Of a DNA stretch of 64,000 nucleotides, positions 1-17,891 are shown in pieces. The position numbers and the translations under genes are program-made. The notes beneath the pieces were generated by a model. It was not told the origin of the DNA and did not search any database. It saw nothing but the letters and a program-made list of their open reading frames with translations. Numbering within the stretch: position 1 is the first letter of the stretch; each line of letters starts with the position of its first letter. This DNA comes from Microbacterium sp. LWH3-1.2 (GTDB taxonomy: Bacteria; Actinomycetota; Actinomycetes; Actinomycetales; Microbacteriaceae). Location: contig NZ_JBEGIK010000001.1 of assembly GCF_040675855.1 (NCBI RefSeq), positions 3,472,001-3,536,000 of the forward strand, read 5' to 3'.

Positions 1-438
1 GCGTCGCTCGGCGACGAAGCGAAGATGCTCGTCCTTCTTCTCGAATCGGACCTGAACACTCTGGTGTTCTTGCTCTCGCAAACACTCTCGGGTCATGAAG
101 GGCCGTTCTTCCGCACGGCTATGGTCACGCTTTGGCATGCCCTTGTGTCGCTTCAGGAACTCCTGAGCGAGTACGCCGCGGCGAAGGCCACAAGGGTGCG
201 AGAACTTCTCACATCGAAGGACGTGGCTACGTTCTTGGACCCGCGCAACAAGCGCATTCGCAACACCTTTGTGCATTACATCCCCCAAGATCTCCCATTC
301 GATGCGAGCAAACCGATGTCCGGCCTCGTTGAGCTCCTCAACCCGGACCAGGACGCCGCCTCGCTCAGCGATCTCACCTGGCGACTCGCTCAGGCGACGC
401 GGGAGGCTGTCGAGGAGTGGCGGCTCGAGCGCTCGTGA
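1..438 (+). CDS. HEPN-like protein, 5' end outside window
   Basis: The reading frame is open from the first base, so the gene probably begins upstream; the first internal ATG is at 25. The visible part is mostly helical and has an R-N-T-F-V-H string at residues 79-84 counted from that ATG, which fits the RxxxxH motif of HEPN domains. Known HEPN proteins are often RNases in toxin-antitoxin or abortive-infection systems. There are no membrane segments. No partner is visible because the gene is cut by the window edge. The HEPN assignment rests on this one motif plus the helical composition, so the function is tentative. A second HEPN-motif protein lies at 9755-11077. Confidence 0.6.
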   Translation, partial: ASLGDEAKMLVLLLESDLNTLVFLLSQTLSGHEGPFFRTAMVTLWHALVSLQELLSEYAAAKATRVRELLTSKDVATFLDPRNKRIRNTFVHYIPQDLPFDASKPMSGLVELLNPDQDAASLSDLTWRLAQATREAVEEWRLERS

Positions 439-736
439 GACAACTCGTCACTGACGTTTCATTCGGGGGGCCGGTGCGATTTGACGTAAGCGACTCGTTC
501 GGACGTCGAGGCCCGCGACTCGGCGAAGATTGGCGCGTTCTGCGACCGCCTTGCGCGCGGTTGCCACTGGTGGTCGCCCGCGTCCGCGCATACAGGTGTG
601 GTGACCGTCTCCGGATCGGGGCACGCGATCGTCGCAGTAGAGTGCCTCCGATCCGAAGGCCGGCGAAAGGTGGTACAACCGCGGGGACGAGTTCGCCGAC
701 AAGGAGTACGCCCCGAGCGAAGAAGCTCGCTAGCGC
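439..736. other. gap with a possible gene remnant
   Basis: No convincing complete gene is visible. On the + strand a frame following a stop at about 638-640 runs from 641 to 733 and encodes a protein-like tail (about S-D-P-K-A-G-E-R-W-Y-N-R-G-D-E-F) but has no start codon, so it could be the end of a truncated gene. Confidence 0.3.
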
Positions 737-1574
737 TCAGCGGCTCAGACTTTCAGAATCGAAAGCGAGATTCCTGGCCGAACAGCGAGGCCAGTATCGC
801 TTCCGATTTTCGCGGGATTGCGCGGATTGTCTGCTAGCCGACCGCTCTGCGTCGACCAGCGCCTGTCGGGCAGTGCGTTCGGAGTTTCGGCGTACGCGCC
901 ACCGTGTCCAGCGACCGTGATCGAGGGCTTCCAAGGTAGCTCCAATGTTGCTGGGCGTTGCCTTCGCCCATTCCTTGCGCCACTCTGCGAATGCCCACCA
1001 GTGCTGTTCCACGTTCACCCGATTCTTGACGTACTCCCCCGTGAATGTCTGAAGGTCGCAGTGGTGAATCTTCTCAACTCCGCCGAAGTCGGCCCAAATC
1101 TTCTGCCAGAGGGGGCCCGCCGGCAGCGGCCCTGAAATCAACCGGTTGAGCGTGTCGAACATCATCCGGGGAGTGTTGGTCTTCGCCTGTATCAGGACCT
1201 CAACCTTCTTGGCTGAGGCAACCATCGCCTCCCAGTGCTGCACGTAGTCGAGCAGCACACCGAACTCTGCGATGAAAGGACGGGAAGTGCCAGGTGGAAT
1301 CTGTCGTACAAGTCGTTCAACGTGTTGAAAGTCTGTGTCGGCGGGAATGAGCGAGTCCGAGCTGTAGATCAGCTGCTCGCATCCATCGGTCGGCCTCCGT
1401 GACGACACGCCGCTGCGCATCCGCGCTCTCGCGCAGCGCGGCACGGCGGGATATCTGCCGCTCCGCGAAAATCACCGCCGCCGCGACAAAAAGACCGGTA
1501 AAAATCGCGACGATCATGTCGGGCCAGAACGATGACCAGTCAACAGTTGCGACTGTCTTGGCGACAGTGAGCAC
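737..1574 (-). pseudogene. frameshifted membrane-anchored hypothetical protein
   Basis: Two overlapping minus-strand frames look like halves of one protein. The upstream half (1574-1317) starts with a short N-terminus, a hydrophobic segment around W-P-D-M-I-V-A-I-F-T-G-L-F and a basic cytoplasmic stretch, then loses sense after about 1385. The downstream half (from about 1385 to 737) lacks a sensible N-terminus but has good protein character. A +1 shift in the reading direction near 1370-1390 joins them into a product of roughly 275 residues: one N-terminal membrane anchor and a soluble domain. The family is not recognised. The shift could be a real mutation, a sequencing error or programmed frameshifting; no slippery heptamer stands out. 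It lies among other accessory genes of unknown function. Confidence 0.5.
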
Positions 1575-1952
1575 CCGACCAGTATTCCGTGACTCCAGAA
1601 CCGTCGTAACCCCGCGCGAAGGGATCGAGATGTGCGCTGGGGTACCGGCATTCGCGCAGCGCAGTAGCGGGCATATCTAGGAGCGAACCGGCGCTGTGTT
1701 CCAGCGCGCACGCAGTGCCAGCCACCCCGACTCGCGGAATTGGGTTCGAACACGGGAATAGCCGCGCGTGCTCCGTTGTTGAGTGTTGTCGAGTGGACCT
1801 GTCTATCGCCTGTGATAGGCCGAACGGGCCGAATCCAGGCCCTAACCAAGCTCCGACCGGAACATCACGCTCCGGCTGACTGACAACCCCAGAGCTCCAT
1901 GAGAGCCGTCCTAAGAAGCGCCGACAGGCGGGCGCTTCTGGAGACGTGCCTC
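1575..1952. other. gap, no gene seen
   Basis: Short overlapping frames on both strands have no convincing start, composition or motif. It separates the minus-strand frameshifted membrane protein from the plus-strand membrane protein and may hold divergent promoters, but no clear -35/-10 pair was identified. Confidence 0.4.
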
Positions 1953-2252
1953 ATGGACCTTCTGGTTGGTTCCTTTCCTTACCTCCTTTCCACCACCGCG
2001 ATCGCGCTGTTTGCCGCCGCGGCCCTGGCTCGCCTGCTCTTCTTCCTGGCGGTCGCACTCGCCTTTGTTCCGCAGTGGAAGCAGCGCATGCTCAAGCTGA
2101 TCAAGGTGGCAGCGCCACTCATACGAAAGAGCGGCCTGATCGGCACCCGTCGGCTTCACGAGCGCATCGCCGTACCGCCGCTCATGTTCCTGGCGATGAT
2201 CCCGGCGACGGCGAAGACCGCGCGCCAGATCCTGGCCACCCTGAACACCTGA
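1953..2252 (+). CDS. small membrane protein, unknown
   Basis: A 99-residue protein if started at the ATG at 1953 (an upstream ATG at 1899 is in frame). Residues about 4-40 are strongly hydrophobic and could form one long or two short membrane segments, followed by a basic stretch (K-Q-R-M-L-K-L-I-K) and a second moderately hydrophobic segment near P-L-M-F-L-A-M-I-P. No known family was recognised. It stands alone between a broken gene and another membrane-anchored protein, in a stretch with many unknown genes, so it may belong to a defence or mobile module. Confidence 0.5.
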   Translation: MDLLVGSFPYLLSTTAIALFAAAALARLLFFLAVALAFVPQWKQRMLKLIKVAAPLIRKSGLIGTRRLHERIAVPPLMFLAMIPATAKTARQILATLNT

Positions 2253-2402
2253 AGTCCGCCTGCGCGATGGGCTTCAGAGGCGTTGGCCGGAGCCTATCGC
2301 GCGCCGTCGTTCGTACGGGCGGCAAGCGACCGCCAACCGCTCGCCGGTGCAGGACCTTCGCCAGACAACCGGGGAGGACGTCCCGGCCTCTACCATGTCG
2401 TC

Positions 2403-3314
2403 ATGGGCCCGGCAGATTCAATCCTCGCTGCGGTCACGGGTTCCGACTGGGCGCGCATTGTCGGCAGCACCGCCGATTGGGTCACGCTCGGAGCGTTCGC
2501 GATAACGCTAGTCGGATTGTTCTCCGCGTTTCTTACGCGTGGGCGGCTGCGTAGCTCCGTGTTCTGTACGCCGCCAGCACGATCGTTCACCTGGACACTC
2601 TCCAACGCCGGAGCGAGCCCCGTGCAGCAGATCGCCTATCACCGCACGTGGATTACTCGAACGGGTCGTCCCGTCGCCGGCGACGGAACGTTACCCCTGG
2701 TGCAAGCACTGTTTCCAGGCGAGACCTTTCGGATAGAGATCTTCGACGCGGAACAGGTGTCATGGTCTGGCGACGAGAGGCATGACGAGCTACGCATGCC
2801 ATCACCGTCAGGCGCAGACGGCGCTGTCGTAGTCCTCACCTGGCGCAGCCCGCTACTCCCCTGGAAGCGCAGGCGACAAGTAATCATCGCCATGTTCGGC
2901 CTGCCACCAGTCAAGCTACGCGGTCGCGGTGCACGTAAGGTGGCCCGCGAAATGAAGTCGATCGGCCCAAACAGCTGGCCAGCCGCGATCAACTCCGAAC
3001 TCACCAAGATGAACGGTGGGGTTGCTCCTACTGAGGAAAGCATCCAGGACCGTTATCCTCGCGCTGGCGCAGAGATCTCACCGCACGAACTGACGAAGGG
3101 TCCCCCTCCTCAACGAGTTCAGCTCTATCTCGGGACCGAGTTGCTCGCCGATGGGCAGCTCGAAGAGTACATGCTGACCGGTCCGACGGACGTGGGGCCC
3201 GGCCGTGACCGCGCCGCACCCGATACCACGGACAGGCCTCGAGGGTTCGTAAAGATCGAAGGTCAGCAGTTCGAGCTGAACGAATCCCATCGGCTACGAG
3301 TCTTCACACGGTAG
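2403..3314 (+). CDS. membrane-anchored hypothetical protein
   Basis: A 303-residue protein from the ATG at 2403; an in-frame start at 2283 would add 40 residues of poor composition. Residues about 20-42 form one hydrophobic segment (W-V-T-L-G-A-F-A-I-T-L-V-G-L-F), followed by a soluble domain rich in beta-type sequence and a hydrophilic C-terminus. No catalytic motif or known family is visible. It follows the small membrane protein in the same direction with a 150-base gap, so a shared role is possible but not shown. Confidence 0.6.
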   Translation: MGPADSILAAVTGSDWARIVGSTADWVTLGAFAITLVGLFSAFLTRGRLRSSVFCTPPARSFTWTLSNAGASPVQQIAYHRTWITRTGRPVAGDGTLPLVQALFPGETFRIEIFDAEQVSWSGDERHDELRMPSPSGADGAVVVLTWRSPLLPWKRRRQVIIAMFGLPPVKLRGRGARKVAREMKSIGPNSWPAAINSELTKMNGGVAPTEESIQDRYPRAGAEISPHELTKGPPPQRVQLYLGTELLADGQLEEYMLTGPTDVGPGRDRAAPDTTDRPRGFVKIEGQQFELNESHRLRVFTR

Positions 3315-3543
3315 CCGGCGCGGGCGTCTGCATTTCCCGCGAGGAGGCACCCCGACCGACTGAGTCCTGATATGCCACCCTCCCGGTCGCGCGATCGAGG
3401 ACCCGTTCACGCGACTGTGTCGCCGGCCGAGCCAGAGACCTGGCGTCAGAGGGAGAACTGGACACAATCTCACTGTCGATCTGGGCGGTGCTGGCGCAGC
3501 CAACGCCGACCTGGCGTGAGAGCTCGATGCGCTCCGTACGAGG

Positions 3544-3948
3544 TTGAAGCGATCGAAGTTGACCAGCGTCATCGCTGGCGTGGCGGCCGCCGTCGGCTTT
3601 GTGGCCGACGCGGGCGGGGCGGTTGAGACGATCCGCGGCATCATTGAATGGGCGACGGCGCACTTCGACGCTAGTGGCGTCCCGGACTTCTCGAACCTGC
3701 CGCCCGAACAAGTCCCCCCGGCAGGCGCGACTTTGGCACCGGCCATCAGTGGATGCGGAACGAACGCGTCATCTCCCGCATGCTGCGTGCCCTCATCGTG
3801 CGTTGCCCGCATGAGGATCGAGATCGCCGCGCCGTACGGCGTACGCAATCTCCCCGAACGCGCATCGCGAATGGGTATCCCGAGAATTTCCTCACCGACC
3901 TGCGGACGCTGCCGACTCCATACCCATCCCCGTTACGTCGGGCGATAA
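3544..3948 (+). pseudogene. possible remnant of a hypothetical gene
   Basis: A TTG start at 3544 gives 134 residues. The first 50 residues look like real protein (a small hydrophobic segment then a helical stretch ending in A-T-A-H-F-D-A-S-G). The same frame upstream of a TGA at 3517-3519 also looks coding and continues smoothly across the stop (E-L-D-A-L-R-T-R-L-K-R-S). After about 3750 the sense seems to move to another frame. The simplest reading is a decayed gene with an internal stop and a later frameshift, but a short genuine gene cannot be excluded. Confidence 0.3.
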
Positions 3949-4028
3949 TCGACGGCTTCTACCCAGAGTCCGGGTCCGCTTAGTCAGCTATCCGTTCTGG
4001 GGCCGCAGCGTGGACGATGGACTGAGCG

Positions 4029-5135
4029 TCAAGGTGCAGCGAGGGCCTCTGCAAGATCGACGCTCTGCCGCAACTTGGCAATCGGACCGTTCCACGTCTT
4101 TGTTAGGAACGCCCACTGACCAGCAACGAGACTCGGAGATACGCGAAGATCGTGCGCGATCGAACGGATCGTTGACGTGGTTGTGGCGGACAGTAGAGCA
4201 TCCCGGTACGCCCCTGGAATCAGGTGCTCCTCCGCGAATCGATTTGCGGCCGTCTCCTGCGCATCCGCATCGTCGTTCGCCCTAAAGTCGTCGACGAACG
4301 TGCTCCGCTTCGGATGCAGAAGGACGTGAGCAACCTCGTGTAGCAACGTGAACCAAAGACTGTCCAGCGTCTTATAGCGACTCGTCACCGCGATCATCGG
4401 CGTCTTGTGGATCCACCTCGACACACCACTGATTCGCGTGTTGGGCAGCTCTGCAACGAACACCAAGACCACTCCTGCCTCTAGCAATAGATCCTGGGCC
4501 CGCTGGAAGGCAACTCGCGGCCCTTGCGTGGTGAGTCTGGGTAGCTCAGCGGCAACGTCTCGCAGCTTGGTTGGGTCATAGGGTGGCGCCTTGTCGATGA
4601 GCTCTGCCGCCTGCAGCTCGGACAGCCTGAGCCAGAGCGCCGTCAGATTGGTGTCGATTACATGTATCTGGCTGCGCTTGTAGGAGGCTTGCGGCTCTAG
4701 CCAGGTCTTCGCGAAGGCGTGTGGGGAAGCAACTTCGAAGAAGGAGAGTAGCTTCGCCGCTACAGCCGGCCCGTGATCTAGTTGCTCAATCACCCCTCGC
4801 TCGATGAGCAGTTGCCGAGGGAACGTGCTGGCCCACTCCGCGAATCCCGCCAGCGCGTCTCGCCGTTCGGCTCGCGCGCCCTGCGCTTGACGGGCAGCCT
4901 CAAGGCCCAACCACATCTCAGCAGACACACCGAGGATCTCCTCAAGGGTGACAGCGACATCCGCAGACAGCGGTGCGGTCCCTTTGATGACGAGATTGAC
5001 GTGCTTTGTGCTGAGCCCGGTCCGCGCGGCAAGTTGAGCTTGACTGATCCCGCGGGAGTCAAGTTCGCGCTGCAATATGCGCCCTGGGTTCGGGGCGAAA
5101 TCAAACCGGGTGTCGGTGGCGGTGTGTCTAGTCAT
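4029..5135 (-). CDS. Xre-family HTH + ImmA/IrrE peptidase
   Basis: A 368-residue protein with two parts. Residues about 17-75 are a helix-turn-helix of the HigA/Xre type (I-S-Q-A-Q-L-A-A-R-T-G-L-S-T-K-H-V-N). Residues about 205-300 hold an ImmA/IrrE-type zinc peptidase core with the motif H-E-V-A-H at 266-270. Proteins of this build bind DNA as repressors and some cleave partner repressors, as ImmA does for ImmR in ICEBs1. The start lies 12 bases after the stop of 5147-5500, so the two genes form an operon that diverges from the ubiquitin-like operon across the palindromes at 5503-5564. It is the obvious candidate regulator of both directions; that is inference. Only one proteolytic site is visible. 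Confidence 0.85.
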   Translation of the reverse strand: MTRHTATDTRFDFAPNPGRILQRELDSRGISQAQLAARTGLSTKHVNLVIKGTAPLSADVAVTLEEILGVSAEMWLGLEAARQAQGARAERRDALAGFAEWASTFPRQLLIERGVIEQLDHGPAVAAKLLSFFEVASPHAFAKTWLEPQASYKRSQIHVIDTNLTALWLRLSELQAAELIDKAPPYDPTKLRDVAAELPRLTTQGPRVAFQRAQDLLLEAGVVLVFVAELPNTRISGVSRWIHKTPMIAVTSRYKTLDSLWFTLLHEVAHVLLHPKRSTFVDDFRANDDADAQETAANRFAEEHLIPGAYRDALLSATTTSTIRSIAHDLRVSPSLVAGQWAFLTKTWNGPIAKLRQSVDLAEALAAP

Positions 5136-5146
5136 GAAATCTCGAT

Positions 5147-5500
5147 TCAGCTCGCGCGCCGGAGGATCGAGCGGCCGCGGACATGGAAGTCGTGAACAAG
5201 TAGAGCCTCCGCGGAGGCGTGCTCGAGCAACGAGGCCCGATTCGGGAGTGGGAGCGCTACTCCGTCGGCACTGAGTGTGTTGGCATGCATGTCGACCTCA
5301 TCCATCGAGAGAGTCAGGTGGCCTGAGTGAACATCGATTTGGACGCTTCGCAACGGGCCGAGATCGCCGAGCATCGGCGCTTGCGAGATGAGGTACAGAA
5401 GGTCTTCCGCTGCTGCGCTCTGGTCGCCGGCGGCGGCTCGCAGCTGCGCTCCTGACAGACAGCAAACCTGGAGCGATGTGCTCGACCACGCCAACAGCAA
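5147..5500 (-). CDS. hypothetical protein upstream of Xre-ImmA
   Basis: A 117-residue soluble protein of unknown family. The likely start is TTG at 5500 (another TTG at 5494), because an AGAGG ribosome site sits six bases before it, inside the left operator palindrome. Codon use is normal for this genome. It is not recognisably RelE/HigB-like, although its position before an Xre gene is where a toxin would sit. It is followed after 11 bases by the Xre-ImmA gene, so co-transcription and translational proximity are likely. Confidence 0.65.
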   Translation of the reverse strand: MLLAWSSTSLQVCCLSGAQLRAAAGDQSAAAEDLLYLISQAPMLGDLGPLRSVQIDVHSGHLTLSMDEVDMHANTLSADGVALPLPNRASLLEHASAEALLVHDFHVRGRSILRRAS

Positions 5501-5502
5501 GA

Positions 5503-5564
5503 TTTACCTCTTTGGTAAACGAAGATCTGGTACAGTGAGATTTACCCGACAGGTACATGCTACC
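5503..5564. promoter_or_regulatory. palindromic operator cluster between divergent operons
   Basis: Three related inverted repeats occur in 62 bases. TTTACC-N5-GGTAAA is perfect at 5503-5519. TTTACC-N5-GGTACA at 5541-5557 differs at one position. GGTA-N5-TACC at 5552-5564 overlaps it in inverted phase. The first covers the ribosome site of the minus-strand gene at 5500; the others lie 50-110 bases before the plus-strand start at 5614. A -10-like TACAGT at 5531-5536 sits between them. The arrangement fits a dimeric repressor controlling both operons. Confidence 0.7.
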
Positions 5565-5613
5565 TGCTCCCAACCGCGAGCAGGGGCGACACGCTACAAG
5601 GAAGGAGGGTCTC

Positions 5614-6045
5614 ATGACCCCCGACGCACCGCTCAAGATCTACATCGACAACAACGCTTTCACCACGCTCGACGAGGACCAGGAGGCCGCTGCTCTCCTG
5701 CGCTTGGCGGGACACGACCCGAAGTCCCACGACCTCTTCCTCATCACCAAGAACGGCGTAGAGGAGAAGATCGGCGACGGCCAGATCGTCAACCTGAGGG
5801 ATTCCGCGCGGTTCTCCGCCCGCAAGAAGATCCGCTTCACGATCGACGGCGAGCGACACACCAGCCACGACGACGACCAGACCGCGGCGGCGCTGCTCCG
5901 GCTCGCCGGAGTTGACCCGGCTGGCTACGACCTCGCCCGCATCCTCCCGACGGGTGGCACCGAGTCCTTCGCGGACGAACAGGTCGTAAAGATCGAGAAT
6001 GGCGACCAGTTCGTCACCGCCAAGCAGGTCGGAGACGTCGCGTGA
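5614..6045 (+). CDS. multiubiquitin protein (two Ubl domains)
   Basis: A 143-residue protein made of two similar halves of about 70 residues, each with the pattern of a prokaryotic Multi_ubiq beta-grasp domain: a K-I-Y-I-D / R-F-T-I-D strand, then an A-A-A-L-L-R-L-A-G helix and an F/Y-D-L strand. The ATG at 5614 is chosen because AAGGAAGGAGG lies directly before it; the in-frame ATG at 5557 has no such site. In this family the protein is the ubiquitin-like modifier of a bacterial conjugation system. The C-terminus ends V-G-D-V-A with no terminal di-glycine, so it may need trimming or act differently. The stop overlaps the GTG of the E2-like gene by four bases. Confidence 0.88.
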   Translation: MTPDAPLKIYIDNNAFTTLDEDQEAAALLRLAGHDPKSHDLFLITKNGVEEKIGDGQIVNLRDSARFSARKKIRFTIDGERHTSHDDDQTAAALLRLAGVDPAGYDLARILPTGGTESFADEQVVKIENGDQFVTAKQVGDVA

Positions 6046-6437
6046 CCGACGCGCCGCCCCTCTCTGGGCCGGCCCTCAGCGGGCCGGCCCAGCAGTTCAT
6101 CGACGACATGACTGCGGCTGGCGCCCCGGCGTGGGCCGACGGAGCACGAATTCTGTACAACGTCGTCGCTGTCGGCGGTGCACTCGCTGGCGACAAGGTG
6201 ACCACGGGGGTCAGCCTGGCCGAGGTGCATAGCTGGCCGATGGTCCCGCCGCACTGGATTCACCTACCCGCCTCCGTCGCTTTCGCCGCGACCAACGTGG
6301 ACTCCACCGACTGCCCTCCTGGATGGGTGCGGCACTCGCGGGAATTCAGCTTCACCGACATGGCGACGGCTCCTGCTCTCGCGTGGCTCCGCCACGTCCG
6401 CGGATTCATTTCCATAGCGATCCCGACGGCGGCTTGA
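6042..6437 (+). CDS. prokaryotic E2-like protein
   Basis: A 131-residue protein starting at GTG 6042, overlapping the multiubiquitin stop, so translation is coupled. Length, position and the pattern H-W-I-H-L-P-A-S-V followed by P-P-G-W-V-R-H-S-R fit the E2-like proteins that accompany Multi_ubiq and E1-JAB genes (the Prok-E2 families described by Aravind and co-workers). A single cysteine near residue 88, in S-T-D-C-P-P-G-W, is the only candidate for a thioester residue. The family call comes from context and partial motif memory; a structure prediction showing the E2 fold would settle it. Confidence 0.65.
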   Translation: MTDAPPLSGPALSGPAQQFIDDMTAAGAPAWADGARILYNVVAVGGALAGDKVTTGVSLAEVHSWPMVPPHWIHLPASVAFAATNVDSTDCPPGWVRHSREFSFTDMATAPALAWLRHVRGFISIAIPTAA

Positions 6438-6438
6438 T

Positions 6439-7917
6439 ATGCGATTCTCTGTAGCGATTCCCGGCGACCTCGACGAGGCGATGCGTGATCATTTGATGCG
6501 GGAGGACGGGCAAGAAGACGTGCTGATCGCGACCTACGCACTCTCCACCGGATCCGAGCGCACCACGGCGCTCGTCAAGACGGTGATCCTTCCTCGCGAA
6601 GGCGAGCGCCACCTACATGGCAACGCCTCGTTTACTAGCGCATATGTCCTGCGTGCGTCAGTCGAAGCTCAGGCACTCGGGCATGGCCTAATTCTCCTGC
6701 ACTCGCACCCGCACAGCGCGGGCTGGCAGCGACTCAGCGACATGGACCGCAACACAGAGTCCGAGTACGAGCGCGTCGCGCGAACCATCACGAAGACGCC
6801 GCTCGTCGGCATGACACTGGGCGGCGCCGACGAGGCGTGGTCAGCACGATTCTGGTTCGACCGGACCGCCCCGTCCTGGGCCGAATCTGTACGAACAGTG
6901 TCGGCGAAGCTCAAGGTCACTTGGAACGACCAGCTTCGCGGCATCCCGGCGGTGACTCGTTCCCAACAGCGGACGGTTTCATCGTGGGGCGAGAGCACGC
7001 AGAAATCGATCGCACGGCTCCGGATCCTCGTCGTGGGCGCGGGAAGCGTCGGGCTCGACGTCGCCCAGCGTCTCGCCGCCACGGGCATCGAAGAGATCGG
7101 TGTCATGGATTACGACGCCGTCGAAATCGTCAACTTGGATCGCATGATCGGCGCAACACGCCTCGATGCCGCCCTCGGACGCGCCAAGGTAGACGTCGCC
7201 GCGCGCCTGATGAAATCGGCGGCGACCGCCCGAAGGTTCCGCGTTAGCACGCACGAGGTCAGCATCACCGACCCGGCTGGCGTGAGCATGGCGCTGGATT
7301 ACGACGTGATCTTCTCGTGCGTTGATCGGCCGTGGCCGCGTGCGGTTCTCAATGAGATCGCCTACTCGGACCTGATCCCCGTCATCGATGGCGGCATCGC
7401 CCTCGACACCTTCCGCGACGGGCGCATGCGTAATGGCATCTGGCGAGCACACACCCTTGTACCTGGCCGACCCTGCATGGCTTGTCTCGGGCAACTCGTC
7501 CTCGGAGACGTCGCTCTCGACAAGAACGGGCTCCTCGACGACCCCGAGTACATCGCCGGCGCGAATCGAGAAGCGCCTTCGCGGCAGAATGTCGCTGCAC
7601 TCTCCTCCAGCGTCAGCGCCGCTCTCCTCGCGCAATTCGTGAGCCTCACCGCCCATCCCGGCGGCCGCGGCGTCTCGGCTCCGCTTCGCTACCTCCTGTC
7701 GACCCACACGCTCGAGCACTCCGCGGCACCCTCCGGTCCCTACTGTCCCTACGAGAACGCCCTTGCAGTGGGCGACGCACGAACGCCGATCGCTGAGCAG
7801 CGCGAAGACTGGCGGGCGATCGTTCGGCAACGAAGTACAAAGAAGGCAACGCTGCGGCTCCGCGGCCTCGCTGCCATCGAGGGCATCTTGACCCGCGCCA
7901 TCGGGCGCCTGAAGTAG
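6439..7917 (+). CDS. JAMM peptidase-E1 (ThiF) fusion
   Basis: A 492-residue fusion. Residues about 1-140 form a JAB/MPN domain with a full JAMM motif: H90-P-H92, seven residues, S100, then D103. Residues about 193-480 form an E1/ThiF adenylation domain with the nucleotide loop G-A-G-S-V-G at 200-205, the acidic stretch V-M-D-Y-D-A-V-E, and N-L-D-R near 232. Cysteines at 294, 346 and 349 (C-M-A-C) are candidates for the catalytic or zinc residues. Known relatives activate a ubiquitin-like protein and remove it from targets. The start is one base after the E2-like stop. Having deconjugase and activator in one chain is seen in other Multi_ubiq operons and supports a self-contained cycle. Confidence 0.9.
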   Translation: MRFSVAIPGDLDEAMRDHLMREDGQEDVLIATYALSTGSERTTALVKTVILPREGERHLHGNASFTSAYVLRASVEAQALGHGLILLHSHPHSAGWQRLSDMDRNTESEYERVARTITKTPLVGMTLGGADEAWSARFWFDRTAPSWAESVRTVSAKLKVTWNDQLRGIPAVTRSQQRTVSSWGESTQKSIARLRILVVGAGSVGLDVAQRLAATGIEEIGVMDYDAVEIVNLDRMIGATRLDAALGRAKVDVAARLMKSAATARRFRVSTHEVSITDPAGVSMALDYDVIFSCVDRPWPRAVLNEIAYSDLIPVIDGGIALDTFRDGRMRNGIWRAHTLVPGRPCMACLGQLVLGDVALDKNGLLDDPEYIAGANREAPSRQNVAALSSSVSAALLAQFVSLTAHPGGRGVSAPLRYLLSTHTLEHSAAPSGPYCPYENALAVGDARTPIAEQREDWRAIVRQRSTKKATLRLRGLAAIEGILTRAIGRLK

Positions 7918-7929
7918 GAGAGAGTGGTG

Positions 7930-8250
7930 ATGAACGCCGACACCTGTCAGGTCCTCGCAACGGTTCTTCCCCTCGTGATTGTCACTCTCGTCATAGAACG
8001 ACGGGCCTTGCGAATGAAGGTCCGCCGGCAACGGTGGTTCCGACACGGGATTCTCGTGCTTCTCGAGACCTCCGTCATCGGCCTCGGATTTGTCGTCGGG
8101 GGGACGCAAACAGGTGGACTGGAAGGCGTGTGGGGCATCTTCAGCTGGATCCTCTCCGCAACCTCGCTTGCCGGGCTGGCGGTAATCACGCTGCTCTCTA
8201 TGGCGTCCACCGAAGTAGATGAAGACGAGGCGGGCGCTCAGCACGCGTAG
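7930..8250 (+). CDS. small membrane protein of the ubiquitin-like operon
   Basis: A 106-residue protein. ATG 7930 has AGGAGA eight bases upstream; GTG codons at 7924 and 7927 are in frame but too close to that site. It has a hydrophobic N-terminal segment (A-T-V-L-P-L-V-I-V-T-L-V-I), a basic loop, then two more hydrophobic segments, and an acidic tail, so about three membrane helices are likely. It begins 12 bases after the JAMM-E1 stop and is surely co-transcribed. No known family was recognised. In antiviral operons, a trailing membrane protein is often an effector or a target; that role is a guess here. Confidence 0.7.
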   Translation: MNADTCQVLATVLPLVIVTLVIERRALRMKVRRQRWFRHGILVLLETSVIGLGFVVGGTQTGGLEGVWGIFSWILSATSLAGLAVITLLSMASTEVDEDEAGAQHA

Positions 8251-8524
8251 CGTGCCCAAGTCGAGTCACGACTCGCAAAGCACGGCCGCCAGCGCGAAAC
8301 GATCCTCAGCCGCGCCCAAACCCGCACGCAAGCGGGACCAAACGCACGCACTCGGCGCCGCTCGCGTCGGGCCCCGAGCGCGCAATGCCCGAATAGGGAT
8401 CCGGCTTCGCGGTGCAGGAGCGCCATGATGGCCAGCATGTGGGTGGGAGTTGGCGTACCTAGAAGCGCGCGGCCTCGCCTGGCGATAACGCAGTTCCGGC
8501 GAACCGGCCTGCTACGTTCGCGTC

Positions 8525-9331
8525 GTGACGCTGGAACTGGGGCCAGACGATAAACGCATGCGGCTACGGTACGCCGGAACGTGCCGGCTCTGCACCCGGC
8601 AGATCTCCGCCGGCGAGGAAGCGGTCTACGAGCGCGACTCGAAAAGACTTCGCTGTATTGACTGCGCGGCGGAGTTCACTGGTGCGGACCGAGGCGAGGC
8701 GGGGGCATCCGCGCGACGCGAATACGAGCGCCGCCGAGACAACCGGGAACGGCGGATCCGTACAGACCATCCGAAGCTCGGCGGGCTGATCCTCGCGCTC
8801 ACCGATGACCCGCAGAGCACGAAAGCGTGGGAACGCGGCGCCATCGGTGAAGAGCTGCTGGCGCGCCGTCTGGGGGACCTGCCCGACACCTTCCGGACGC
8901 TGCATGACCGCCGCATCCGAGGCACCCGAGCGAACATCGATCACATTGTGATCGGCCCGACCGGGGTCTGGGTGATCGACGCGAAGCGGTATATGGGTAA
9001 GCGTCCCGCGCTGGAGGTGGAAGGTGGCATCATTCGGCCGCGTGTCGAGTCTCTCCGTATCGGCGGACGAGACGGCACCAAGCTGGTACAAGGAGTGCAG
9101 TCCCAGGTCGAACGAGTGACTGCGGCGCTCGAAGAAGCAGTGCCTCCGGTGACCGGCGTGCTGTGTTTTCTTGAAGCCGACTGGTCACTGATCGGCGGCT
9201 CCTTCAGCGTCGACGGTGTCCACGTTGTGTGGCCGCGCCTGCTGGTCCAGCGCATGATGGACGCGGCGCCGCAGCCCATCGATGTCGACCGCATACATAC
9301 CCAGATCGCCCGCGCGTTCCCGAGCGCATAG
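8525..9331 (+). CDS. NERD-domain nuclease-related protein
   Basis: A 268-residue protein from GTG 8525. The N-terminus has a small zinc-ribbon pattern, C-R-L-C near residue 19 and C-I-D-C near 46. The middle holds a NERD domain: a conserved W-E-R-G-A-I-G-E-E block, then N-I-D-H-I-V-I-G-P-T-G-V-W-V-I-D-A-K, which carries the D...D-A-K residues of a PD-(D/E)xK-like nuclease fold. NERD proteins are thought to be nucleases or DNA-processing proteins; few have been tested. It lies 275 bases after the ubiquitin-like operon in the same direction; a functional link is possible but not shown. Confidence 0.85.
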   Translation: MTLELGPDDKRMRLRYAGTCRLCTRQISAGEEAVYERDSKRLRCIDCAAEFTGADRGEAGASARREYERRRDNRERRIRTDHPKLGGLILALTDDPQSTKAWERGAIGEELLARRLGDLPDTFRTLHDRRIRGTRANIDHIVIGPTGVWVIDAKRYMGKRPALEVEGGIIRPRVESLRIGGRDGTKLVQGVQSQVERVTAALEEAVPPVTGVLCFLEADWSLIGGSFSVDGVHVVWPRLLVQRMMDAAPQPIDVDRIHTQIARAFPSA

Positions 9332-9463
9332 GGCGACCACCGGGCTGGAGCCAGCGCCTTAGAGGAAAGTCCGACGAGGGAGCGACTCCCGCTCGTCGCG
9401 CTCGCGCATCACGCCGGCCTGTCGGGCGGTTACACGCGGCGAGCTCCGCCCGTCGCACCGCTA

Positions 9464-9631
9464 TCAGATGTCGACGCCGAAGGCGCAGCAGCGGAACGCG
9501 GGGAACATCCGGCGCGGGCCGAGTTGAACGGTGGGGATTGTCCCGCTTTCGATGCCAAGCCTGATCGTGCGGTAGTCAACGCCGACGAGCTTCGCGGCAT
9601 CCTTTATTTCGGTGCTAGACAGTCTGGTCAC
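9464..9631 (-). CDS. excisionase-like HTH protein, copy 1
   Basis: A HTH_17/excisionase-like domain of about 55 residues: D-A-A-K-L-V-G-V-D-Y-R-T-I-R, then G-I-E-S-G-T-I-P-T-V-Q-L-G-P-R-R. It is homologous to the 59-residue protein at 11432-11611. The ATG that matches the start of copy 2 reads ATG-AAC-CGG-TGA here because of a one-base deletion, so the gene must start at GTG 9631 or further upstream in the frame that is open to 9718. It may be a weakened copy. It lies downstream of the HEPN gene on the same strand. Confidence 0.6.
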   Translation of the reverse strand: MTRLSSTEIKDAAKLVGVDYRTIRLGIESGTIPTVQLGPRRMFPAFRCCAFGVDI

Positions 9632-9695
9632 CGGTTCATGGTCCCGCCCTTCTGAGACCAGTGTCACTCTCCCTTCGTCGCCAGGTACCACCTTG
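9467..9695. repeat. imperfect direct repeat, copy 1
   Basis: This stretch covers the small HTH gene and its upstream region and matches 11435-11668 over about 230 bases with many substitutions and small indels, in the same orientation. The match extends beyond the coding part into the leader (TGTCA, then CTCCCTTC and TACCAC are shared). The two copies bracket the HEPN gene. Confidence 0.7.
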
Positions 9696-9754
9696 GCTGC
9701 CAGGTGACACTCGAGCACTCCGGTGCCTGTTCTGAGAGGCTTCGCTTTCGGACC

Positions 9755-11077
9755 CTAAATTACTGAGCTGCTACCGATGATGACTGCCTCCGAAACGAAC
9801 CGGATCAACGGGATCTCGCGACGAAGCGCGTGGTCGTCTTTAAACGGTGTGTAACGGGACTTGTCGCCATCCTTGCGATGAACGAGGGCATTCCTAGTCT
9901 TATAGATGCGTTGAGCAAGGCGTTTGTAGCGCTGATCGTGCGGTGACCTGAGGTCGACGGTGTCTCCGGATGAAAATCCGACAGGCGTGTGCGCGTAGTA
10001 CTCAAGCAACGAAGCATCGAACGTCGATATCGAGTCGGCGAGCGACGCTAGGTCTACGTACTTCTCGAGAGTCAGCTGGAGCGCCGTGGCCTCGTTGATC
10101 ACTACGCTCTCGTCCCTCGCACGAAGAGACTTGCTCACAGTACGGATGACGCCGCGGATGTCCTTCTTTCGCCTCGCTGAGAAGTCTGGCGAAGTAATGG
10201 CGAGCTGGACGCGAGTTGCCACATCGTCGAGAAAGACGTCTTCGAACCAATGCTCAGCGACGTGATAGAAGGATAAGTACGACAGCATAGGGCTCTCAGA
10301 CCCTAGCGCCACTTGATAGCTGCGAACTATCTCGGGGATATACGTCCGCCGCGGCGCATCAAGCTCGTCTGTCATAGTGCGCCGCAGTCTCTGAATCCGA
10401 CTCGAGCGGGACAATTCTGTCGCGGACTGTCGCGGGGTGAGTGCCAGGTCGAGGTTGAAACCAAGGTGGAAGAAGAGGGACTCGGAAAGAACGCGCCAGT
10501 CGGCTTCGCTTCGCTTCTTGGTGCTCTCGATGCGCAACGTCGAAAGCCGGACCCAATCGGCGATTAAGACGAACGGATCAACAATTTCTGCCTGACCGGA
10601 CGGTGACCGACCATAGCGCAATAGCGTTGGCATCATCGGTCGATCTCGCCTCGGGATGTCAGTCATCAACTTTGCACAGGCGATGCTGAAGGCAGTGCTG
10701 GGTCGCCCAAGCCGATAGAAGAGCCCTTCCGCGGCATTTTCAAGGATCAGGTCGTCGCGCGCCCGTAAAGGCCTTCCGAGAGAGGATTCGTCCACGGCGA
10801 CCTCGAACGTCGTGTCTGTGATGAATGCCAGCCCGAGTGACTCAGATGACCGAAGTCGTTCAATCTCAGCGAGCACCTTCAGAACGTCGGTCCGTGACTT
10901 CTTCTCCAAGACCAGATCTGCTGATTGTCCAGGTTGCCTACCTCGAAACTCGACTTCATCGCCGTTCAAGCTCACCTCGAGGCGAAAGACATCGCCGAGG
11001 ACGCGGGAGAGAGCACCGATCTCGTCAGACTCCACGTCATCGGTCGAGTCGACGTCCCCGATCACATCACCACTCAT
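9755..11077 (-). CDS. large HEPN-domain protein (ApeA-like)
   Basis: A 440-residue protein with no membrane segment. The C-terminal region contains R395-N-A-L-V-H400, the RxxxxH motif of HEPN domains, after the segment Y-L-S-F-Y-H-V-A-E-H-W-F that recalls Apea-like HEPN proteins. The N-terminal 150 residues look like a separate recognition domain with alternating strands. HEPN proteins of this size often act as stand-alone abortive-infection RNases; the activity here is inferred from the motif. The start ATG 11077 has GGTGAG before it, and a perfect 11-bp inverted repeat lies directly upstream (11086-11112). Codon use is less GC-biased than in neighbours of the core region, in keeping with transfer. 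Confidence 0.7.
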   Translation of the reverse strand: MSGDVIGDVDSTDDVESDEIGALSRVLGDVFRLEVSLNGDEVEFRGRQPGQSADLVLEKKSRTDVLKVLAEIERLRSSESLGLAFITDTTFEVAVDESSLGRPLRARDDLILENAAEGLFYRLGRPSTAFSIACAKLMTDIPRRDRPMMPTLLRYGRSPSGQAEIVDPFVLIADWVRLSTLRIESTKKRSEADWRVLSESLFFHLGFNLDLALTPRQSATELSRSSRIQRLRRTMTDELDAPRRTYIPEIVRSYQVALGSESPMLSYLSFYHVAEHWFEDVFLDDVATRVQLAITSPDFSARRKKDIRGVIRTVSKSLRARDESVVINEATALQLTLEKYVDLASLADSISTFDASLLEYYAHTPVGFSSGDTVDLRSPHDQRYKRLAQRIYKTRNALVHRKDGDKSRYTPFKDDHALRREIPLIRFVSEAVIIGSSSVI

Positions 11078-11085
11078 CTGCTCAC

Positions 11086-11112
11086 CATATCGGCGCGTAG
11101 GGCGCCGATATG
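11086..11112 (-). promoter_or_regulatory. 11-bp inverted repeat before HEPN gene
   Basis: Arms CATATCGGCGC (11086-11096) and GCGCCGATATG (11102-11112) are perfectly complementary with a five-base spacer. The element ends nine bases before the HEPN start codon. It could be an operator for autoregulation or a leader hairpin controlling translation. Confidence 0.6.
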
Positions 11113-11431
11113 GGAATACAGAAACCTAGTCGCGAACGCGACGCCGCTCGTTGTCTGGCCGCGCGGGAGAGGCGTGCATCGGTCGCAGATGCGAGCGCGA
11201 CGCGGGCGCCTTCAGTTGGTGGCTCTGAGCCATCCACCGCACGGGCGGGGTTGGCAACGTGCGATCGGGCTCGCGTGGGTTTCACTTGCGCAAACGAAGA
11301 GTCAGAACGGAGTTCCGCCGGAGACCCGAACCTTGAATCAGGATGGAGCATCGAGCCGCGAACAACGCGTCAGGGGCAACGCGTCCTCAGCCTCGAAAGA
11401 CCAACCCGTAGCTCCAGCCATTAGCCACCGG
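11113..11431. other. gap, no gene seen
   Basis: No frame has a credible start and composition. It separates the HEPN gene and its inverted repeat from the second excisionase-like gene on the same strand, so a promoter for the HEPN gene probably lies here, but none was identified with confidence. Confidence 0.4.
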
Positions 11432-11611
11432 TCAAGCGTCGACGCCGAAGGCCCGCAGCAGCGGGGCGCGAGGGATCATGCGGCGGGGGCCCAGCTGGAT
11501 CGTGGGGATGGTCCCGTTCTCGATGCCGAGCTTGATCGTGCGGTAGTCGACGCCGACGAGCTTCGCGGCATCTTTCATTGTCAGAGCCAGGCAGTCCTGT
11601 GACCGGTTCAT
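11432..11611 (-). CDS. excisionase-like HTH protein, copy 2
   Basis: A 59-residue protein starting at ATG 11611, with GGAAGGAAGGG about four bases before it. It is a single HTH_17-type winged helix: M-K-D-A-A-K-L-V-G-V-D-Y-R-T-I-K, then G-I-E-N-G-T-I-P-T-I-Q-L-G-P-R-R, ending in an L-L-R-A-F-G helix. Such proteins act as excisionases (recombination directionality factors) or as small repressors. No integrase is present in the window. The gene is divergent from 11731-12372 and is the intact version of the pair. It is short enough to be missed by automatic gene calling. Confidence 0.75.
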   Translation of the reverse strand: MNRSQDCLALTMKDAAKLVGVDYRTIKLGIENGTIPTIQLGPRRMIPRAPLLRAFGVDA

Positions 11612-11668
11612 CGCCCTTCCTTCCTGTGAGCCAGCAGTGTCAGTCTCCCTTCATCGCAAGCTACCACA
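11435..11668. repeat. imperfect direct repeat, copy 2
   Basis: Second copy of the roughly 230-base repeat described at 9467-9695, covering the intact HTH gene and its leader. Confidence 0.7.
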
Positions 11669-11730
11669 ACCGTGAGCCAAGATCGACAGTCTTCTTCGCG
11701 AATCGTCGCCGACCTGGAATAGTGGGCTCC

Positions 11731-12372
11731 ATGGCAGACGTCGAGGCATATGACTTCAGCGACGAACGCATCGACCTCGGCAGCGGCGTAACGCTGCCGA
11801 AGTCGTGGCACGCGCGGGTGTCAGGCGAGCAGGACGTGCCCGGCACGATCACCGTGCGCGTGGAGTGGGACGCTGCGCTTGGCCGCACGGCCGTTGTGTT
11901 CGCCGCCCTTGAGCGCGAAGCGGAAGGCGTCGACATCACCAGCCAAGTGCTGCGCGAGGTGCGCACGCATTGGATCATGACGAGGTCAGCCCTCGAGGTC
12001 GTCACCGTCGACGTCAGCGGGGAGGGTATCGACGATCGCTCTCGCATCCCGGTGCGAGAGTATCTCAGCCGCGTGCAGGCGCAGGAGGAACGCGAACCCT
12101 TGGAGTCCCTGCACGCCGCGATCGCCGTCTATCGCGTCGCTATGGCGATCAGCTACCCCCCACTCAAGCTCATCAGCGACACTCTCAAGATCAGCCAGAG
12201 CACCGCAACCCGCCTCATGACTCGCGCCCGCGATGCGGGTCTCGCGCCGGAGGTGCGGATCCAGGAGCCTCGGCGTGCGCCGGCAGTGGACCCGTACAAC
12301 CCGCTGAGGCCACACGCAACAGGGCCGTACTACGGCCCGTCCGGGCCCGGGGGTCCGTCGATCGGGCGATGA
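11731..12372 (+). CDS. hypothetical protein with C-terminal HTH
   Basis: A 213-residue protein from ATG 11731; the frame is open further upstream but the earlier part overlaps the divergent HTH gene leader. Residues 1-110 are a beta-rich domain of unknown family (V-T-L-P-K-S-W-H-A-R-V-S). Residues about 135-180 look like a helix-turn-helix (P-L-K-L-I-S-D-T-L-K-I-S-Q-S-T-A-T-R-L). The tail is proline- and glycine-rich (about 35 residues). It could be a regulator of the island. It is the last gene before the island edge. Confidence 0.6.
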   Translation: MADVEAYDFSDERIDLGSGVTLPKSWHARVSGEQDVPGTITVRVEWDAALGRTAVVFAALEREAEGVDITSQVLREVRTHWIMTRSALEVVTVDVSGEGIDDRSRIPVREYLSRVQAQEEREPLESLHAAIAVYRVAMAISYPPLKLISDTLKISQSTATRLMTRARDAGLAPEVRIQEPRRAPAVDPYNPLRPHATGPYYGPSGPGGPSIGR

Positions 12373-12433
12373 GCACAACCCTGGCAGGTGCCACGTGGGC
12401 CGATTTCACGGGGCTCGGAGCAAAGTAGATGAT

Positions 12434-12448
12434 TGAGCATTTTGCTCA
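12434..12448. repeat. palindrome TGAGCA-TTT-TGCTCA
   Basis: Perfect six-base arms around a three-base spacer. It is repeated with identical arms at 12694-12708, 260 bases away, and the 11 bases GATTGAGCATT are identical in both. It could bind a dimeric regulator or a recombinase accessory protein. Confidence 0.7.
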
Positions 12449-12693
12449 TACATCACGACGGACACGGCTTTGCGTTACGCAATGTGCTCTCAGGTAGCTG
12501 GCGAAGAATCTGTCTGTTCGACAGCCCTGCGCAGTGCGCTTGACCATCGCTGAGACCCCTGATTTTCTGCGGATTGCTGCCCGCATTTTGCCCGCAAACT
12601 GTTTGCCGGGACCTGCTTCCGACTGCTGCGCGGTGTCGGCCAGCTCTCTCGAAAGCCCTGTAATTCCGCGGTTCTTGTAGGTATCGGTAGGAT

Positions 12694-12708
12694 TGAGCAT
12701 TATGCTCA
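12694..12708. repeat. palindrome TGAGCA-TTA-TGCTCA
   Basis: Second copy of the palindrome at 12434-12448; only the last spacer base differs. Confidence 0.7.
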
Positions 12709-12804
12709 GTCGTGTTCAAGTCCCTCCAGGGGGAGCGACATTCTTATGTCCTCTGATCAGGTCTTCTTTTCAGCCCGAATTCCTTAGTTGCCACCCGCCA
12801 GACT

Positions 12805-13350
12805 TCACCCGGGTCGACCTGGGTCCTCGAGCTCGGTTGCGATTGTTCGCGCCCAGGCGTCGATCGCCGCCCAGTCTCTGAAGTCGCCGGCGGGCAAGGC
12901 CTCCGCTCCCGCGGGTACGAGCTTCATCAGGTGCTCCGCGGCGCCGACGGGCGGGGCATCCGGATCCCATGCCCCGAAGAAGACCCGCTCGTCACGAGGG
13001 TGCAGTGCCGAGCTGAGTTCTTCGAACTCCTTCGGCCGGCTGGACTCCAGGACGTCGCGGCCCTCGGCGTCGACGGTGTCTGTGCCGAGCGGTCCACTGC
13101 TGAACAGCCAGAGCGGGCGTGAAGCCAGGACCGCCTTGTGCCTCTTGACGAACCGGGTCGCATCTTTCATCCAGTGGAAGACGTAAGCCGCGGCACCGAC
13201 GACGAAGGCGTCGTACTGCTCGACGTCGTGGACGTCTTCAGTCCGCATCGCCTCCGCTTCGACACCGGCGGCCGTCAGCTCGGCGGCGACCCGTTCTGCG
13301 ATTCCGGCCGTGGAGCCGTGCCGACTGGCATAAGCGATGAGAACCTTCAT
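12805..13350 (-). CDS. flavodoxin-domain protein (HemG-like)
   Basis: A 181-residue flavodoxin-fold protein. The N-terminal strand and phosphate loop read V-L-I-A-Y-A-S-R-H-G-S-T-A-G-I-A, the FMN-binding signature, and W-L-F-S-S-G-P-L-G matches the second FMN loop of the menaquinone-dependent protoporphyrinogen oxidase/flavodoxin_5 group. It probably acts as a soluble FMN electron carrier or quinone-linked reductase. Its start is 69 bases from a DevR-like box at 13419-13432, so induction with the dormancy genes is likely. Other stand-alone flavodoxins of the same region are at 15798-16301 and in the broken gene at 24071. Confidence 0.85.
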   Translation of the reverse strand: MKVLIAYASRHGSTAGIAERVAAELTAAGVEAEAMRTEDVHDVEQYDAFVVGAAAYVFHWMKDATRFVKRHKAVLASRPLWLFSSGPLGTDTVDAEGRDVLESSRPKEFEELSSALHPRDERVFFGAWDPDAPPVGAAEHLMKLVPAGAEALPAGDFRDWAAIDAWARTIATELEDPGRPG

Positions 13351-13418
13351 GGCGTGCTCCCTGCCCAGTGATCACCGTGTCAATGTGCTCACCGTAGGAG
13401 GCGCCGCCGCGCCCCGCC

Positions 13419-13432
13419 GGGACCTTCGTCCC
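13419..13432 (-). promoter_or_regulatory. DevR/DosR-like box 1
   Basis: GGGACCTTCGTCCC. The flanks extend it to a perfect palindrome with eight-base arms and a CTTC centre (13416-13435). The spacing of GGGAC-N4-GTCCC matches the core of the mycobacterial DosR site. It precedes the flavodoxin gene at 12805-13350. Confidence 0.75.
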
Positions 13433-13610
13433 GGCTTCTCAGCCCGTCATCGAGGGCTGCTTCGCCGCGGAAGGCTGGGAGCCGGCCGACGTCATCTGGG
13501 AGAGCTATCTGAGCGATCCGGATGCCGAGCCCGATCCGACCGCCTGGCGCACGCTGATCTCGTGGCCCGTCGCCGACCACGAGAGCGACGACCGGCCCGC
13601 AAGTGCGTGA
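13431..13610 (+). pseudogene. headless gene fragment
   Basis: A plus-strand frame ending in TGA at 13608-13610 reads as genuine protein for about 57 residues (W-E-P-A-D-V-I-W-E-S-Y-L-S-D-P-D, then W-R-T-L-I-S-W-P-V) but has no start codon between it and an upstream in-frame stop at 13395. It looks like the C-terminal end of a lost gene. The family was not recognised. Its 5' boundary lies at DevR-like box 1, so a deletion may have joined that promoter region to it. Confidence 0.5.
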
Positions 13611-13641
13611 AGGTCAGGCGGAAGAGGGTTCCCGGCTCCGC

Positions 13642-13655
13642 GGGACCTTCGACCC
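13642..13655 (+). promoter_or_regulatory. DevR/DosR-like box 2
   Basis: GGGACCTTCGACCC, 66 bases before the split-barrel gene at 13722. It differs from box 1 at one base. Confidence 0.75.
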
Positions 13656-13721
13656 GATCGAATCGCGCCCGCGGCGGGTTTACTCAGACGGAGAGGGCCA
13701 CCCTGGAGTGAGGGAGCGATC

Positions 13722-14171
13722 ATGGAGAACGCCGATGACGTCGTCACGCAGTTGGATGAAGAGGCGTGCTGGGCTCTTCTGGCGCGCAACGAGCTCGGAC
13801 GACTGGCGGTGACGGCGGGGGGCGACCTCGAGATCTTCCCGATCAATTACGTGATCGACGGCGGTCGCCTGTACTTTCGCACAGCCCCCGGATCCAAGCT
13901 TGCGGGACTCTCGGCGCACCCGCGCGTCGCCTTCGAAGCCGATGAGCACGACGACGTCTCCGCCGCGAGCGTGGTGCTGAAGGGCACGGCGCGGCGTGTG
14001 GAGCTGCAACGCGAAATCGATGCGCTCGACGCGCTTCCCCTGACGCCCTGGATTCCGACGCTGAAGTACCGCTGGGTTCAGATCACTCCTGACTCCGTGA
14101 CAGGACGGCGATTCGAACGCAGGCCGGAACCGGATCGATACATGGCGTCGACCAACGACCAATGGACGTAA
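13722..14171 (+). CDS. FMN-binding split-barrel (PPOX-like) protein
   Basis: A 149-residue protein of the pyridoxamine 5'-phosphate oxidase superfamily. The opening C-W-A-L-L-A-R-N-E-L-G-R-L-A-V and the strand I-F-P-I-N-Y-V-I-D-G-G-R-L-Y-F-R-T are typical of the Pyridox_ox_2 group, and V-A-F-E-A-D-E-H-D follows as expected. Such proteins bind FMN, heme or F420 and act as small oxidoreductases; several are DosR-regulon members in mycobacteria. A box at 13642-13655 precedes it. ATG 13722 is preceded by GGAGTGAGGGAG. A role in redox balance under low oxygen is inferred. Confidence 0.88.
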   Translation: MENADDVVTQLDEEACWALLARNELGRLAVTAGGDLEIFPINYVIDGGRLYFRTAPGSKLAGLSAHPRVAFEADEHDDVSAASVVLKGTARRVELQREIDALDALPLTPWIPTLKYRWVQITPDSVTGRRFERRPEPDRYMASTNDQWT

Positions 14172-14273
14172 CGCCCGGCCTGTGCGCCCGATGCACGACT
14201 GCTGATCGCGTCGGCTCCTGAGCCGAATGTGTCGAGCGGATGCCGCCGGCACGGTGCGGGAGGGAGGTCTGAC

Positions 14274-16301: not shown

Positions 16302-16311
16302 GACGGCACTC

Positions 16312-17833: not shown

Positions 17834-17891
17834 GGTCATCTCCTCGGCAGTATCTCTTTCATCAGTGTCTCCGCCGCGCGGTCGGGCAGAT

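Follow-up and report, generated by a model that had tools for sequence, protein, structure and literature searches.

A Bub-family operon and its probable, PD-lambda-2-like controller in the actinobacterium Microbacterium sp. LWH3-1.2

The genome of Microbacterium sp. LWH3-1.2 (3.94 Mb, two contigs) carries an operon that probably serves conjugation of a ubiquitin-like protein (Ubl), faced by a divergent, putative controller with helix-turn-helix (HTH) and peptidase domains, and we describe both here as they lie in the window, the whole stretch of 64,000 bases that was analysed. In what follows, DUF955 is a domain that we take to be of the ImmA type. In 2016, 70% of proteins with the PF14452 (Multi_ubiq) domain were reported to adjoin toxin-antitoxin (TA) loci with COG2856/DUF955, an arrangement read at the time as stabilisation (PMC4963859). 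In another study, CapW or CapH+CapP, which are regulators activated by single-stranded DNA, were found at 219 of 544 operons of the recently named bacterial ubiquitination-like (Bub) family; its authors state that phage protection by Bub operons had yet to be demonstrated (PMC13373217). With these two accounts, and with an M78-type motif no more than 2 kb upstream of the Ubl gene in 38 of the 48 operons that we compared, an HTH-protease neighbourhood of Ubl operons is already known in general. A HigB-fold partner or shared palindromes, both of which mark the present locus, were not described in the literature as covered by titles and abstract openings, a coverage outside which most subscription journals fall.

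We consider it likely that this locus encodes a mobile conjugation system of the Bub family and that a HigB-fold/HigA-ImmA pair controls it (Table 1). The most likely picture as a whole, in which conjugation, regulation and defence alike are inferred, is that of a stress-inducible Bub system, repressed by HigA-ImmA and placed in a defence island.

Table 1. Features of the locus, in window coordinates unless another contig is named
Feature	Position	Strand	Remarks
HigA-ImmA fusion	4029..5135	-	Xre/HigA HTH and M78 (ImmA/IrrE) metallopeptidase, HEVAH; proposed repressor and protease
SML	5147..5500	-	117 amino acids; predicted HigB fold; YRL Arg, present in HigB relatives, absent here; conserved gene
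Putative operator 1, TTTACCTCTTTGGTAAA	5503..5519		TTTACC-N5-GGTAAA, perfect 6-base arms
Putative operator 2, TTTACCCGACAGGTACA	5541..5557		TTTACC-N5-GGTACA
Ubl modifier (BubA-like)	5614..6045	+	Two Multi_ubiq repeats, PF14452; C-terminus Val-Ala
E2-fold protein (BubB-like)	6042..6437	+	131 amino acids; C91, H98, S99; fold predicted
JAMM-E1 fusion (BubCD-like)	6439..7917	+	PF00899; BubCD 9ea4, E 6.7e-22; catalytic residues
Three-helix membrane protein	7924..8250	+	108 amino acids; strain-level add-on to the operon
Integrase-to-relaxase gene set	L125 (16 kb left of window), 1522..15056

The four open reading frames (ORFs) of the operon are as tightly packed as the initial annotation of this DNA had said, with a 4-base overlap and gaps of 1 and 6 bases, and we place the set in the Bub family rather than in a new class. 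The first protein contains two Multi_ubiq stretches (PF14452, E 2e-11), in keeping with the two-domain Ubl that had been proposed, and had no significant match in the PDB. The third matches ThiF/E1 (PF00899, E 5.9e-29), and the best PDB match of its profile is Citrobacter BubCD (9ea4). Pfam reported nothing for its JAMM half, which is assigned because its motif is invariant and because the BubCD alignment, over residues 6-327, spans both halves; the fusion recognised earlier is thus borne out. The JAMM residues (E26, H88, H90, S100 and D103) and E1 residues G200, G202, G205, D224, N232, R235, K250 and D296 are identical in 46 of 46 JAMM-E1 sequences. Both the JAMM motif and the E1 glycines had been called intact, correctly, except that the two histidines had been numbered H90 and H92. 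The annotation had also seen a Ubl conjugation operon of the Multi_ubiq kind, and so it is; the Bub family, to which the BubCD and BubB matches lead, had gone unnamed. Pfam and NCBIfam offered no usable family for the E2-like and membrane proteins, 37 E2-like relatives gave only stray matches in Pfam, and a PHROGs search with the E2-like, SML, membrane and Ubl proteins returned one stray match only. The gene set, distantly related to the ubiquitin system, probably tags proteins in the manner of ubiquitin.

Support for the E2-like label given to the second protein comes from its predicted model, which has an E2 fold. The first Foldseek match of the model is Citrobacter BubB (E 0.068), and 48 of its 50 VIA titles name an E2 or a ubiquitin E2 variant (UEV), with the TSG101 UEV as the top row. 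UEVs lack the catalytic cysteine. Here, Cys91 is present in the window protein and in 26 of 47 E2-like proteins overall, a distribution that takes two or more changes to explain on the E1 tree, and W65, P66, W72, H74, H98, S99, W115 and H118 are found in all 47. Because Cys91 is missing in the other 21, the E2 step cannot rely on it across the whole family. One could argue from those 21 proteins, and from the TSG101 match, that the E2-fold protein is an inactive, Ubl-binding subunit of RWD/UEV-like kind and that the E1 transfers the Ubl directly, all the more as the E2-like domain of type 6e operons was termed inactive for want of the cysteine (PMC1779556). Yet H74, H98, S99 and H118 are kept throughout, a polar conservation that appears to exceed what mere binding needs. 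Moreover, Cys91 lies 21 residues past the PP motif, near the spacing seen in canonical E2 proteins. We regard an inactive subunit as somewhat unlikely, and continue with an E2-fold protein that would take part in conjugation.

The C-terminus of the Ubl reads Val-Ala in 44 of 47 proteins, Val-Gly in two and Val-Thr in one, so that the di-glycine is indeed absent, as had been noted, while the end is far from random. Since the Ubl stops exactly at this common motif, with no tail to trim, the JAMM half is more likely a deconjugase than a trimming enzyme. The loss of a cysteine where all other residues examined are intact, together with the near-fixed Val-Ala, points to candidate residues for a possibly unusual conjugation chemistry.

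An Xre-ImmA regulator diverging from the operon had been recognised from the start, and it is present; it is not the next gene, however, as SML, which was overlooked, lies between HigA-ImmA and the Ubl gene. The conserved partner of the operon is the pair of a HigB-fold protein and HigA-ImmA, with their putative operators, of which only the Xre-ImmA part had been seen. HigA-ImmA matches PF01381 (E 1.3e-8) and PF06114 (E 2.2e-16) in Pfam, TIGR02607 (antidote_HigA) above cut-off, PADLOC PD-Lambda-2_B (E 9.6e-39) and, weakly, PADLOC capP (E 2e-7). For SML, a HigB fold is predicted; this assignment leans on the model, because profile comparison with HigB relatives was not significant, and PADLOC gave no match to SML. 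Among 299 genomes of the family, SML occurs in five, four of which carry the E2-like operon. The remaining genome, G032, has an operon of another kind opposite SML and HigA-ImmA, one of Multi_ubiq and DUF6791-ThiF genes. The arrangement recurs in G127 with a weaker SML relative and its own HigA-ImmA (HigA 44% identical to that of the window), DUF6527 following. All six of these SML loci thus face a Multi_ubiq gene. Within a sample of 296 genomes of the phylum, SML was found in the window's own genome only.

The 113-base divergent promoter region between SML and Ubl (5501-5613) holds two palindromes, which we regard as putative operators through which the operon would be repressed. Exact matches to them occur at just two places in the whole genome, and matches with one mismatch were more numerous than in any of 100 shuffles of the window. 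Across the 48-operon set, which omits repeat loci of the same genomes and counts the near-copies L009/L010 and L011/L012 apart, all 14 SML-type loci hold an exact match, against none of the 34 others. Five HigB-type loci (L088 left out) have a different palindrome, around TCACC..GGTGA. At L008 and L013, two loci that fall inside the SML clade, controller and palindromes are both missing; the G032 and G127 loci have a similar first palindrome. The palindromes accompany the controller and are gone where something else stands in its place. In L008, by eye, HTH-like, kinase-like and large hypothetical genes (2044-5031, -) stand in place of SML and HigA-ImmA. On the E1 tree, which was built without the Clavibacter locus and L025 and on which upstream types were labelled by hand, the five types switch 15 times, compared with 27.6 times in shuffles, so controllers have been exchanged, though not freely.

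Several caveats attach to a regulatory role. Operator 1 shares bases with a possible ribosome site of SML; toxin-antitoxin pairs repress themselves, a caveat on taking the palindromes as operators of the Ubl operon; and no Ubl operon adjoins the HigA relatives of G123 and G226, from the 12 family genomes with a HigA-like match (G079, G232 and G263 were left out of examination). A promoter scan gave no sigma-70-type site. On a rival reading, the pair would be no more than an addiction module, there to stabilise a mobile cassette for conjugation without regulating it, as was proposed for the Xre-DUF955 pairs beside Multi_ubiq cassettes in the 2016 report, with TA loci beside 70% of PF14452 proteins (PMC4963859). 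Toxin-antitoxin pairs have operators of their own, and the operon and pair are found on plasmids, both of which suit such a module. It fits poorly with an SML that lacks the YRL Arg of HigB relatives, with palindromes that come and go with the controller, with one controller facing two classes of Ubl operon, and with the Ubl gene faced at six of six SML loci in the family sample. We judge simple addiction to be unlikely, and return to a controller that would act as a switch.

As such a switch, SML and HigA-ImmA would bind the two palindromes and keep off both the conjugation operon and the controller itself. A signal of infection or DNA damage would activate the ImmA protease, and loss of the repressor would allow the operon to be expressed. 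Gene content, homology, predicted folds, conserved residues, and the palindromes with their tie to the controller are observed; repression, ImmA activation, conjugation, deconjugation and defence are inferred from them. The E1 half of JAMM-E1 would adenylate the Ubl at its C-terminal alanine; the E2-fold protein would aid transfer to targets, not necessarily by way of the canonical cysteine, with Ser99, Cys91 where present, or direct passage from the E1 as candidates; and the JAMM half would remove the Ubl from targets. It is tempting to speculate further that the disarmed HigB-fold protein, HigA-ImmA and the palindromes form a dedicated cassette that moves as a unit between JAMM-E1 and DUF6791-E1 Ubl operons, and that it switches on a pathway with a Val-Ala terminus in which the E2 cysteine is dispensable (Ser99 or direct E1 transfer); we hold this fuller proposal only tentatively. 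If the controller is a switch, it would provide an inducible handle on the actinobacterial Bub pathway. It would also explain the closeness of Multi_ubiq genes to TA-like loci set out in the 2016 report (PMC4963859), with the pair as a sensor and not an addiction module.

The membrane gene, which begins 6 bases past the JAMM-E1 stop, was initially counted as a component of the operon. Its product does have the three hydrophobic stretches that had been described, and in the present strain its role would go no further than anchoring or targeting the machinery. The gene is absent from all 39 other operon-bearing genome loci, 36 of which extend more than 100 bases past the E1 gene (L005, L035 and L038 end sooner). 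Conversely, a Ubl, E2 or E1 relative was found in none of 12 neighbourhoods of membrane-protein relatives, which cover all of the 13 relatives except G070. One of these neighbourhoods (L076) looks prophage-like by eye. The membrane gene is an add-on and not a general Bub-operon component, which overturns the earlier count. Members of its protein family were found in 14 of the 299 genomes, the window's own among them; a protein search found three relatives besides the protein itself, and searches of phages, plasmids and viral contigs found no match. The longest contigs of one relative (P0242) and of the closest E1 and E2 relatives are equal in length, at 27,137 bases, so the gene may also be present in one sister operon. 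A new class of membrane-anchored conjugation system, with the product of this gene as its essential effector or anchor, can draw on the 6-base spacing and on that possible metagenomic linkage, but with the gene missing from 39 of 39 other operon loci and no such operon in any of the 12 neighbourhoods of its relatives we reject it as very improbable. Directly 3' of the operon lies a gene for a NERD-domain protein (8525-9331, +; PF08378, E 3e-12); in L073 a strong relative of this protein and a relative of the membrane protein are about 4 kb apart.

A JAMM-E1 relative was detected at 44 loci of the genome_contigs set, the weakest only distant, and 39 of these loci carry the Ubl, E2-like and JAMM-E1 genes in the same order as the window. 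Hosts include Actinomycetota, Caldilineaceae (Chloroflexota), one Myxococcota record and others. In a Dehalococcoidia record (L025 5983-7491, +) the JAMM-E1 relative appears as two ORFs, 5983-6516 and 6532-7491, either split genes or a frameshift. The E2-like protein is found in 10 of 299 family genomes (E<=0.001, own included), eight of the matches being strong and the weak ones in G055 and G217 not counted as operons, and in none of the five other genomes listed for the genus; the alignments A2 and A4 hold 20 and 19 of 120 listed E2 relatives. Ten actinobacterial plasmids carry a JAMM-E1 relative of at least 52% identity, and a plasmid of Haloprofundus halobius carries one of 32% identity (L095 4059-6584). 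There, two small hypothetical genes precede the JAMM-E1 relative and DEAD/DEAH helicases follow, possibly an archaeal counterpart of the operon. No near DNA match to the operon was found among plasmids, no JAMM-E1 in viral contigs, and in phages only two partial matches of 27% identity. These are unannotated Staphylococcus phage records (OR850000.1 and OR844994.1), in which a ThiF-like stretch aligns with the E1 half over 188 residues. The spread of the operon is sporadic, as for mobile genes.

The surroundings are those of a defence-rich mobile island. An integrase is located some 14 kb to the left of where the window begins, and between it and the window are a type I restriction-modification system (HsdR, HsdS and HsdM), a patatin effector with a SMODS/AGS_C cyclase of the type found in the cyclic oligonucleotide-based antiphage signalling system (CBASS; PADLOC E 7e-104 and 1e-170), and a gene for a TrwC relaxase. 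The Ubl gene starts about 9.6 kb to the right of the cyclase. G+C content is 57-66% in window positions 1-13,000 and 67-71% in 13,001-20,000. By eye, a stretch like a tRNA 3' end (GTTCAAGTCCCTCCAGGGGGAGC, about 12,695-12,745) lies where G+C rises and is a possible att site; the 16 kb left of the window yielded no repeat of it. A search for a syntenic empty site in the genus gave partial matches only. On named plasmids, operon neighbours include AbiEi/AbiEii, a methyltransferase with a restriction endonuclease, and DarT with an ADP-ribosylglycohydrolase. This context supports a defence role, which the operon may thus have.

Other genes to the right of the operon merit a brief mention. A 440-residue protein (9755-11077, -) has a weak PADLOC DzbB match (E 1.3e-6) and a sub-threshold MauJ match, and could be a defence gene. 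Two small proteins (9464-9718 and 11432-11611, -) have a near-identical stretch, KDAAKLVGVDYRTI...GPRRM, in common; the first has weak HTH_17/MerR matches, and the pair may be duplicated excisionase-like genes.

How, then, does the locus compare with described systems? CBASS Cap2-Cap3 modules have an E1-E2 fusion in an operon with a CD-NTase; here the E2-like gene is separate, and none of the four genes gave a cyclase match. In Bil (BilABCD), the deubiquitinase (BilC) and E1 (BilD) are separate, whereas JAMM and E1 form one protein here (PMC11354881). Type 6e polyUbl operons share with the window a tandem Ubl, then an E2/RWD-like gene, then an N-terminal JAB-E1 fusion (PMC1779556). Their E2-like domain is described without the conserved cysteine, whereas the window protein has Cys91 (21 of 47 relatives do not). 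Their Zn-finger protein Y, which we equate with DUF6527, had no counterpart by DUF6527 match in the window genes scanned, the two following genes included; DUF6527 is present in the DUF6791-type operon L116. PD-lambda-2 likewise has a HigA-peptidase fusion, joined by a HigB-like protein (PMC9519451); SML resembles the latter in predicted fold, with no significant profile match, and lacks the YRL Arg, and a divergent Ubl operon takes the place of the third component. PADLOC, whose library may or may not hold a model of that component (C, needed for defence), gave no match to it among 12 window proteins. Strict membership in type 6e, PD-lambda-2, Bil or CBASS is rejected on this feature-by-feature comparison.

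Among regulators, CapH+CapP, CapW and CapK+CapS control CBASS or Bub operons and resemble the present arrangement in having an HTH regulator beside an immune or Bub operon, CapH+CapP also with a protease; the HTH and protease genes of CapH+CapP are separate, whereas here they are fused and joined by a HigB-fold partner (PMC13373217). The Xre-DUF955 TA loci beside Multi_ubiq genes share HTH and DUF955 genes adjoining PF14452 genes, and a HigB-fold partner and shared palindromes are features of our locus, not of that account in the part consulted (PMC4963859). The closest likeness is to Citrobacter Bub (BubB and BubCD; PDB 9ea4, 9ea5, 9eae and 9eav), with a JAMM-E1 fusion homologous over both halves and, in the same operon, an E2-fold partner, whose first fold match is BubB, and a Multi_ubiq-type modifier. 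BubB in 9eae is numbered 235-361, which suggests part of a longer protein, whereas the E2-fold protein here has its own gene. The present locus differs further in belonging to an actinobacterial branch, in its HigB-fold/HigA-ImmA controller and in its added membrane gene. In sum, this is a Bub operon from an actinobacterium, with a putative controller that resembles PD-lambda-2; the proposed switch and part of the chemistry look unusual.

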